Made by a program: the position numbers and the translations under genes. A stretch of DNA of 64,000 nucleotides from Komagataeibacter sp. FXV3 (GTDB lineage: Bacteria; Pseudomonadota; Alphaproteobacteria; Acetobacterales; Acetobacteraceae), in NCBI RefSeq assembly GCF_015155755.1, contig NZ_VWPI01000124.1, positions 1 to 64,000 on the forward strand, read 5' to 3'. Under the pieces are notes generated by a model. It saw only the letters and a program-made list of their open reading frames with translations, had not been told where the DNA came from and did not search any database. Positions 48,838 through 53,398 of the stretch are shown in pieces (within the stretch, counting starts at the first letter, position 1; each line of letters opens with the position of its first letter).

Positions 48838-48913
48838 TGGTGGAGCTGAGGGGAATCGAACCCCTGACCTCCTCATTGCGAACGAGGCGCTCTCCCATCT
48901 GAGCTACAGCCCC
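48838..48913 (-). tRNA. tRNA-Ala (CGC)
   Basis: Acceptor GGGGCTG/CAGCTCC, D-arm AGCTCAGATGGGAGAGC, anticodon stem CCTCG/TGAGG with loop TTCGCAA and anticodon CGC, T-arm GGTTCGATTCC, and an encoded CCA. Confidence 0.96.
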
Positions 48914-51111: not shown

Positions 51112-52173
51112 TCATACATCCCGTATGGTCTTGATCAGATCGCCCACATGTTCGGGGGGTGTTGTCGGAATGACCCCGTGGCCAAGGTTGAACACGTGGG
51201 GGCGTCCCTTCATCGCATCACGGATGGCGCGGGCTTCGGTGCGCATGCCTTCCCCCCCGGCCAGCACGCGGATCGGGTCCAGGTTGCCCTGCAGCACCAG
51301 CGTATCCGGCACCTTTTCCGCCACGGCCTTCATGTCGGCCCCGGTATCGAGCGCCATCGCGTTCACGCCCGTCACGTGGCCGTATTCAATCGCCATAAGC
51401 CCGGCCAGGCGCGGAAAGCCGATTACCGGCACATCGGGGTGGCGTGCATTGATGATTTCGGTAATCCGGCGCGCGGGTTCGATGACATGCTTGCGGAACT
51501 GCGACGGCGGCAGAAGCCCCGACCAGCTGTCGAACAGCATGACCGCTTCCGCCCCGGCCGTGATCTGGTCGCACAGCATGTCCGCCGTGGATGTGGTCAG
51601 CAGGTCGATCAGCCGGTCAAAGAATGCCGGGTCGGTATAGGCCAGCCTGCGCGTTTCCTCGAACTCACGCGAGCCATGGCCTTCCACCATGTAGCACGCC
51701 ACCGTGAACGGGGCGCCGGCAAAGCCGATCAGCGTGACCTGTCCCGGTTTTGCGGGGCCGATCGCCTCCGGCCCGTCAACAGCTTTGCGCAGCCGGGACA
51801 GCGTTTCCATGACCGGCTGCGTTGCCTCTTTCACCCGCGTGGGGTCCAGACGCTCCAGGTCGGCCATCGAACGGACCGCCCCGAGGACGGGGCCACGACC
51901 CGGCACGAATTCCAGTGATTGCCCCATTGCCCATGGCAGGATGAGGATATCGGAAAACAGGATCGCGCCATCCATGCCAAAACGGCGGATGGGCTGCAGC
52001 GTGATATCCACCGCCATGTCCGGTGTCATGCAACGGGTTATGAAATCCGCCTTTTCACGCAGTGCCCGGAATTCTGGCAGGAACCGGCCCGCCTGCCGCA
52101 TCAGCCATACCGGAGGTGGCCATGTCGCCTCTCCCAACAGGGTGGCGAGCAGGGGTTTGCGTGTTTCAGTCAT
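51112..52173 (-). CDS. hemE: uroporphyrinogen decarboxylase
   Basis: 353 residues. Removes four carboxyl groups from uroporphyrinogen III to give coproporphyrinogen III. The start motif PPVWLMRQAGRFLPEFR, then ILFSDILILPWAMG, GFAGAPFT, and the LFDSWSGLL segment are all present. First gene of hemE-HAD-hemJ. Its start faces the origin region. In Caulobacter crescentus and Rickettsia the origin lies next to hemE (established knowledge). Confidence 0.97.
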   Translation of the reverse strand: MTETRKPLLATLLGEATWPPPVWLMRQAGRFLPEFRALREKADFITRCMTPDMAVDITLQPIRRFGMDGAILFSDILILPWAMGQSLEFVPGRGPVLGAVRSMADLERLDPTRVKEATQPVMETLSRLRKAVDGPEAIGPAKPGQVTLIGFAGAPFTVACYMVEGHGSREFEETRRLAYTDPAFFDRLIDLLTTSTADMLCDQITAGAEAVMLFDSWSGLLPPSQFRKHVIEPARRITEIINARHPDVPVIGFPRLAGLMAIEYGHVTGVNAMALDTGADMKAVAEKVPDTLVLQGNLDPIRVLAGGEGMRTEARAIRDAMKGRPHVFNLGHGVIPTTPPEHVGDLIKTIRDV

Positions 52174-52579
52174 CGATCCGTCGTTCTGTTTCGTTGTGGC
52201 CGGACTATCTCGTACTTTCGTCGTGACGGATAGCGGGCAGGTGAGACGCGCGCGCCTCTTTCAAAACAATAAAAGAAAAGAGAAAGAAATTTTTTGATGT
52301 GCTTTAAGTGCTGTGGATGACGGGGTACCCACGTTTCCGAAAATGTACCCCACTTTTCCCACAGAGTGTACAGTTTCCGACTCCAAGGATTCCCGTGGCC
52401 GTGGGGAGTTATCCAGATTGTACCGACATGGGCCTGTGTACAACCCACCGCGAACGGAGGTGTACCCGTTGTCCACGGTACTCGGTACGGCGCAGAATTG
52501 TTTGGAGTACTGTCCCCATGTACCCCAGTACTCGAACGCACCGAATTTCGTGTTTCACTTCGACAGTACGGAGAGGGTG
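52174..52579. other. candidate chromosomal replication origin (oriC)
   Basis: 406-base spacer between hemE (leftward) and maf (rightward). Position 52257-52298 is an A/T-rich tract, a candidate unwinding element. DnaA-box-like 9-mers are at 52312 (TCATCCACA on the minus strand, one mismatch to TTATCCACA), 52409 (TTATCCAGA, one mismatch), and weaker ones at 52355, 52435 and 52469. The tetramer GTAC occurs 12 times in 52325-52566. Genes read away from the region on both sides. No CtrA-type TTAA-N7-TTAA pair was seen. Confidence 0.8.
52325..52569. repeat. GTAC tetramer array inside the origin region
   Basis: GTAC starts at 52325, 52345, 52368, 52420, 52438, 52462, 52478, 52485, 52507, 52520, 52528 and 52566, and further copies at 52212, 52601 and 52643. 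Many are in TGTACCC or AGTACTG/AGTACTC contexts. One copy per about 256 bases is expected by chance. Confidence 0.85.
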
Positions 52580-53224
52580 ATGCCAGACGACTCGAATTTA
52601 GTACTAAAGCCGCCGCCATTACAGGCGGAGTCGCCGCCGATAGTACTGGCCAGCCGCTCTGCCGCGCGGCGGAGTCTGCTGGAATCAGCGGGGATTCGGG
52701 CGGATTACCGTGCGGCGGATGTGGACGAACATGTCATTCGCGACCGTGCCCGCGCCTGCGGGATGGAAGCAGGCCAGACAGCCCTCGAACTGGCCCGGGC
52801 CAAGGCGCGCGCCATCAGCGTGGACAATGGCGCGGCCGTGATTGGCGCGGACCAGATGCTGTCATGCGATGGGGCATGGTTTGACAAGCCGGAAAGCATG
52901 GACGCCGCCCGACAGCAGTTACGCACGCTGCGCGGCAGGCCCCATATGCTGCATACGGCGGTGGTGATGCTGCGTGACGGGGCCGAGGTCTGGCGGCACG
53001 TTGCCTGCCCCGTGCTGCACATGCGTGCCTTCAGCGATTCCTTTCTGGAGCGTTACCTGGCGATGGAGGGCAATGCGATTCTGTCCTGTGTCGGGTGTTA
53101 CCGGCTGGAAGGTATGGGCATTCACCTGTTTTCCCATATAAAAGGCGAACATTCCGCCATCATGGGATTGCCCCTGCTGGCGTTGCTGCAGGCGTTGCGG
53201 GCACAGCGTATCATCATGCAATAA
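52580..53224 (+). CDS. maf: Maf-like nucleotide pyrophosphatase
   Basis: 214 residues. Maf proteins hydrolyse non-canonical or unneeded nucleoside triphosphates and are linked to division control. Signatures: IVLASRSAARRSLLESAG near the N-terminus, GADQMLSCDG, the FDKPESMDAARQQLRTLRGRPHMLHTAV stretch. I start at ATG 52580 after GGAGAGG; the long frame extending back across the origin is not a gene. The common alphaproteobacterial neighbours aroE, coaE and dnaQ do not follow; a tRNA-Ala does. Confidence 0.88.
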   Translation: MPDDSNLVLKPPPLQAESPPIVLASRSAARRSLLESAGIRADYRAADVDEHVIRDRARACGMEAGQTALELARAKARAISVDNGAAVIGADQMLSCDGAWFDKPESMDAARQQLRTLRGRPHMLHTAVVMLRDGAEVWRHVACPVLHMRAFSDSFLERYLAMEGNAILSCVGCYRLEGMGIHLFSHIKGEHSAIMGLPLLALLQALRAQRIIMQ

Positions 53225-53322: not shown

Positions 53323-53398
53323 GGGGCCATAGCTCAGTTGGGAGAGCGCCTGAATGGCATTCAGGAGGTCAGGGGTTCGACTCCCCTTGGCTCCACCA
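53323..53398 (+). tRNA. tRNA-Ala (GGC)
   Basis: Acceptor GGGGCCA/TGGCTCC, anticodon stem CCTGA/TCAGG with loop ATGGCAT and anticodon GGC, T-arm GGTTCGACTCC, encoded CCA. Second alanine tRNA in the window, 100 bases downstream of maf. Confidence 0.97.

Follow-up and report, generated by a model that had tools for sequence, protein, structure and literature searches.

Introduction

The main text of Blow et al. 2016 describes clusters of orphan-methyltransferase motifs at replication origins: GATC, TTAA in Arthrobacter, CTCGAG in Nocardia, and CTAG carrying m4C in Haloarchaea (PMC4752239). Neither GTAC nor Acetobacter appears in that main text (PMC4752239). As for GTAC, M.RsaI yields m4C at this tetramer in Rhodobacter blasticus 28/5 (PMC6256690), and the known GTAC enzymes M.PabI and M.CviQI make m6A (PMC4357717). 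GTAC methylation in acetic acid bacteria was not found described in the main texts of the open-access literature searched, and methylation data for any Acetobacteraceae were not found in the literature searched. SMRT sequencing of Acetobacter pasteurianus SKU1108 has yielded raw reads (PMC5158111).

I analysed a window of 64,000 nucleotides from Komagataeibacter sp. FXV3 ("the window" is this whole stretch of DNA, positions 1 to 64,000 of contig NZ_VWPI01000124.1). A preliminary description of the window had pointed to a dense GTAC array in a putative origin and had guessed at a role like that of GATC and SeqA, a guess that is supported by the present analysis. It was found that acetic acid bacteria have 8-16 GTAC copies packed at their putative replication origin. 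The array occurs only in species that also keep one particular methyltransferase, and this suggests that chromosome copying is timed by a switch, based on methylation, that has not been described before.

The GTAC array in the hemE-maf spacer

The array lies between two divergent genes, and its layout in the window is as follows.

51112..52173, minus strand: hemE, uroporphyrinogen decarboxylase, flanking the array (PF01208, E 8.5e-111)
52212..52215, no strand: outlying GTAC on the hemE side, found in 10 of 29 aligned spacers
52322..52350, plus strand: invariant double site GGGGTACCC-N14-GTACCC, found by pattern search
52325..52569, no strand: core GTAC array of 12 GTAC palindromes, starting at 52325, 52345, 52368, 52420, 52438, 52462, 52478, 52485, 52507, 52520, 52528 and 52566
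52580..53224, plus strand: maf, flanking the array (PF02545, E 2.9e-43)
52601..52604, no strand: outlying GTAC within the 5' end of maf, found in 19 of 29 aligned spacers
52643..52646, no strand: outlying GTAC within the 5' end of maf, found in 11 of 29 aligned spacers

The preliminary description had reported twelve GTACs in about 242 bp of the hemE-maf spacer, 7-52 bp apart, with three more just outside. The spacings and the three outliers (52212, 52601 and 52643) are as it claimed, the flanking genes match the two expected families, and the twelve core sites occupy 245 bp at confirmed positions. The Poisson probability of at least 12 copies in this length is about 1e-14, or 6.6e-10 once corrected for all positions of the window. 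Elsewhere in the window, GTAC occurs about 1.5 times per kb with at most 4 copies per 300 bp; the total for the window, 111 copies where shuffled sequences average 93, is not striking once the array is set aside. In the genome as a whole, 8 of the 21 forward clusters of three GTACs fall in the hemE-maf array, and no rival locus comes close. Among all 256 tetramers, GTAC ranks first in 21 related spacers (232 observed against 39.8 expected from dinucleotides). The two comparisons that the preliminary description had proposed, with GTAC density in the rest of the window and genome and with the spacers of related genomes, thus left the array standing: GTAC is sparse elsewhere, and related genomes keep the array. 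It is not due to chance or composition.

In 29 aligned spacers, six GTAC sites are kept in at least 90%, and the remaining tetramers kept at that level mostly overlap these six sites. Besides the shared copies, there are up to 7 private copies per genome, indicating turnover of GTAC. The double site GGGGTACCC-N14-GTACCC was found in 122 of 299 Acetobacteraceae genomes and in 18 of 65 genera; it is present in a single copy per genome, with the exception of G222.

Two further observations concern the surroundings. A group of four GTACs in 66 bp lies at G000:C163:41166-41231 (L160:5167-5232), between kdsA-like and glycosyltransferase-like genes. The hemE-maf region itself is flanked by tRNA-Ala genes with the anticodons ggc and cgc (window positions 53323-53398 and 48838-48913).

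Origin features of the spacer

The preliminary description had placed the GTACs among DnaA-box-like sequences, and five such sites, each with one or two mismatches, were indeed found in the spacer, together with an AT-rich tract.

52260..52308, no strand: AT-rich tract adjoining the array, candidate unwinding element (68-75% AT in 40-base windows)
52312..52320, minus strand: DnaA-box-like TCATCCACA, 1 mismatch to TTATCCACA
52355..52363, plus strand: DnaA-box-like TTTCCCACA, 2 mismatches
52409..52417, plus strand: DnaA-box-like TTATCCAGA, 1 mismatch
52435..52443, minus strand: TTGTACACA, a GTAC overlapping a DnaA-box-like 9-mer (7 of 9 matches), within the invariant CTGTGTACAAC
52469..52477, plus strand: DnaA-box-like TTGTCCACG, 2 mismatches

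The alignment of spacers likewise has a conserved purine/AT-rich tract beside the array. The close relatives by HemE are Komagataeibacter; the GC skew was followed in 20 sampled stretches of one complete relative chromosome, that of Gluconacetobacter diazotrophicus PA1 5 (G009). Its cumulative minimum lies between 2.04 and 2.24 Mb, and hemE lies at 2.13-2.14 Mb. The dnaA gene of this chromosome, which starts at base 77 (G009:C1:77-1429), is near the skew maximum and far from hemE. The paper on Acetobacter pasteurianus 386B puts oriC near dnaA (PMC3751514). With its DnaA-box-like sites, its AT-rich tract and the skew minimum at hemE in G. diazotrophicus, the hemE-maf spacer fits a chromosome replication origin of the hemE-linked kind, as the preliminary description had supposed.

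An orphan methyltransferase accompanies the array

Several methyltransferase genes were found in the genome: a CcrM-like one beside rnhB, one of the D12 class adjoining the CcrM-like one, and two more for N6_N4 enzymes. The D12-class methyltransferase was the first candidate and was rejected, being sporadic and absent from most array genomes. Its gene (L081:2-1141; G000:C183:15413-16552) directly adjoins the CcrM-like gene in genomes of Komagataeibacter and of the Novacetimonas type, whereas most other acetic acid bacteria lack it.

The METHYLTRANSFERASE that tracks the array is an orphan enzyme encoded outside the window, at G000:C69:10142-11029 (L082). All 47 named genomes tested were positive for it, and a search of 80 further genomes at 1e-20 gave matches in 34, of which two are weak. 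It is present in all array genomes, and most genera that lack the array have no match; among about 380 other alphaproteobacterial genomes, no match was found at E 1e-45. The gene adjoins mltA at the same place in seven genera, with tim44-like, cytochrome c peroxidase and Smr-like genes as neighbours. No nuclease gene lies beside it in these seven genera, and a phage nuclease query found no resembling gene in 34 genomes in a search that had no positive control. Since there is no adjoining nuclease and the gene is conserved across genera at a fixed chromosomal place, the enzyme is an orphan and not part of a restriction system. Acetobacter thailandicus (G042) has an array of 10 GTACs, although its methyltransferase shares only 47% identity with that of Komagataeibacter.

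Which sequence does this enzyme recognise? The nearest relatives found for it in the phage collection are 43-51% identical (43% over 259 aa), among them the enzymes of the Synechococcus phages Syn19 and ACG-2014j. In these two phages, the gene of the methyltransferase relative overlaps a gene annotated as R.RsaI endonuclease, a name given to the phage genes by their depositors. The nuclease of Syn19 fits one of the PADLOC models for type II nucleases (E 1.6e-11); that of ACG-2014j matches no PADLOC model and is 36% identical to the Syn19 protein. Motif IV of the enzyme is TSPPY, which is conserved in 34 orthologues that were collected with that motif, and its best PDB matches are N4-cytosine enzymes. 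Homology and co-occurrence thus suggest a beta-class methyltransferase of the RsaI-associated type, with the GTACs of the array as its putative targets. Its product is most likely N4-methylcytosine, although M.PabI and M.CviQI make m6A on GTAC.

The distribution of the two traits was laid over a HemE tree of 96 rows. The array was called at a cut-off of 5 GTACs per 300 bp, chosen by the author, and the named rows were all scored array-positive, four of them (L053, L065, L072 and L078) indirectly, on the ground that all g14 genomes carry the pattern at a relocated site. Array and enzyme occur together in 52 rows, neither occurs in 36, the enzyme alone in 8 and the array alone in none. The eight genomes with the enzyme and no clear array are G203, G201, G225, G270, G329 and G231, with G223 and G252 as partial cases, and every genome that lacks the enzyme has at most 3 GTACs per 300 bp. 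In a comparison that needs no cut-off, the 700 bp upstream of hemE hold a mean of 9.6 GTACs with the enzyme and 0.53 without it (p 1e-13, a value that ignores relatedness). The same contrast within the outgroup clade alone, where the enzyme is scattered, gave 6e-5, also with relatedness ignored. On the HemE tree, there are 3-4 independent contrasting pairs, none of them contrary, and a sign test is not significant. The co-occurrence of array and enzyme therefore rests on few independent events.

Both traits are absent from G050 and G194, which are nested in the Gluconobacter/Bombella clade next to G085, a genome with both. The hemE-maf spacers of G050 and G194 are still present. That of G050 holds 14 perfect TTATCCACA DnaA boxes, an extreme density for one origin, and that of G194 holds two perfect TTATCCACA boxes and several near-perfect ones. 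G050 and G194 are both long branches that the tree puts together, so the joint loss may be one event or two.

Proposed mechanism and alternatives

I consider it likely that the hemE-maf spacer is a replication origin in which the GTAC array acts as a switch controlled by methylation through the orphan enzyme. The methyltransferase would methylate the GTACs of the array, among which weak DnaA boxes are scattered. Once the origin has fired, the dense GTAC sites would turn hemimethylated, and refiring of the origin would be blocked until the enzyme has remethylated them; this timing by hemimethylation and the block to refiring (sequestration) are proposed by analogy with Dam/SeqA. The block may be exerted by a reader protein that binds hemimethylated GTAC. 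Alternatively, weak boxes that overlap a GTAC, such as TTGTACACA (52435-52443), may bind DnaA differently as a direct result of the methyl group. The SeqA family PF03925 was absent from 26 array genomes, with a positive E. coli control. The block would thus require either a reader other than SeqA or a methyl group that acts on DnaA directly.

On a broader reading, towards which the balance tips slightly, an RsaI-type methyltransferase was fixed as an orphan in acetic acid bacteria and gave them, in addition to CcrM, an independently evolved origin that is gated by GTAC methylation, probably with m4C and a reader other than SeqA. Loss of the enzyme would take the array with it, and the origin would have been rebuilt with consensus DnaA boxes in at least one case. 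If this is true, a methylation-controlled origin has evolved independently in industrially used bacteria whose control of initiation appears little studied. Gain and loss of the switch would then have occurred naturally, with the matching change of the origin directly readable. The target is compact, consisting of one gene, one 4-base motif and one 245-bp region.

The preliminary description had left two possibilities side by side, a binding site of an unknown initiator and a methylation site. A dedicated initiator or regulator might read GTAC regardless of methylation, the correlation with the methyltransferase being a by-product of shared ancestry. The gap of the double site is always 14 bases in the 122 genomes, and the 7-base spacing of the sites 52478 and 52485 is held in the aligned spacers. 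Such fixed spacing suggests a constraint beyond mere methylation density, and a fixed protein-DNA architecture would provide one; the small number of independent co-changes of array and enzyme also leaves room for this reading. However, each position flanking GTAC carries at most 0.12 bit in 21 spacers, so that the unit is the bare palindrome. This is unusual for a site of the transcription-factor type, and a bare four-base unit is what is expected of a methyltransferase site. Moreover, the array is never seen without the enzyme, and G050 and G194 are without both. The initiator reading is therefore unlikely and less favoured than the methylation site, for which the lack of flank preference and the co-occurring orphan methyltransferase, with its phage relatives that have a partner nuclease annotated as RsaI, provide specific support.

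It is improbable that GTAC is simply part of diverged DnaA boxes, such that the DnaA of this clade binds sites like TTGTACACA and the array is a plain DnaA-binding region. TTGTACACA does agree with the DnaA box in 7 of its 9 bases and occurs widely, and the same spacer in G050 holds perfect TTATCCACA boxes. On the other hand, most GTACs of the array lack the TT...ACA flanks, and DnaA-box-like sites persist beside them. The recognition helix RDHTTVMHA is identical in species with and without the array, save for the array genome G005 (RDHTTVIYA), and the keeping of this standard helix argues against a changed DnaA specificity.

A still more doubtful idea is that the array controls the transcription of hemE, maf or both and is unrelated to replication. 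The divergent arrangement of the two genes would suit it, as would the intergenic position of 13 of the 15 sites (12 core and 3 outlying). The case of Bombella and its relatives speaks against it. These had been taken for losses of the array, a view that was dropped when the pattern search found the array 20-26 kb from hemE. In these Bombella-like genomes (g14 and g37; L302, L303 and L304), neither hemE nor maf stands alongside, and the relocated array adjoins GMC-oxidoreductase-like and rho-like genes, so named from the look of their sequence. Since the array is parted from both genes in this lineage, it is not their promoter element; the DnaA-box-like sites, the AT-rich tract and the skew minimum at the hemE locus of G. 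diazotrophicus also point to replication. Compositional or chance enrichment, with the Poisson value, the conservation across genera and the first rank among tetramers all against it, has a negligible probability and was already refuted by the conservation of the array.

Comparison with known systems

With the RsaI restriction-modification system of Rhodobacter blasticus 28/5, the system proposed here probably shares the recognition sequence, and the enzyme has relatives in phages whose partner nucleases bear the annotation R.RsaI. The proposed system differs in the lack of an adjoining nuclease in seven genera, the fixed chromosomal place and the conservation across genera. CcrM/GANTC of Alphaproteobacteria is likewise an orphan methyltransferase of the same bacterial class, and the genome analysed here has a CcrM-like gene of its own. 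The GTAC-associated enzyme, however, is encoded by a gene of its own and lacks the C-terminal RAMA domain, and the motif enriched in the spacer is GTAC, not GANTC. Counts of GANTC, which range from 0 to 13 per 700 bp, do not separate genomes with the enzyme from those without.

There is also a likeness to Dam/SeqA at oriC of Escherichia coli and its relatives. In each case the origin contains a dense palindromic tetramer with DnaA boxes in between, a conserved orphan methyltransferase is present, and the motif cluster follows the presence of the enzyme (no array without it in the 96 rows). The motif here is GTAC instead of GATC, and the enzyme is of the TSPPY type, probably an N4-cytosine enzyme, whereas Dam is of the D12 class. 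SeqA is lacking, and no GTAC enrichment was found upstream of dnaA, unlike in E. coli.

The clusters in the main text of Blow et al. share with the array a non-coding motif cluster at a putative origin, at orthologous places, and a conserved orphan methyltransferase, whose specificity is here a predicted one. Among them, CTAG of Haloarchaea provides a precedent for m4C (PMC4752239). The present case differs from those of that main text in its motif, in its lineage and in showing array and enzyme lost together. An origin cluster with an orphan methyltransferase is thus of a known kind, and the GTAC version in acetic acid bacteria, with its putative methylation step, is new.
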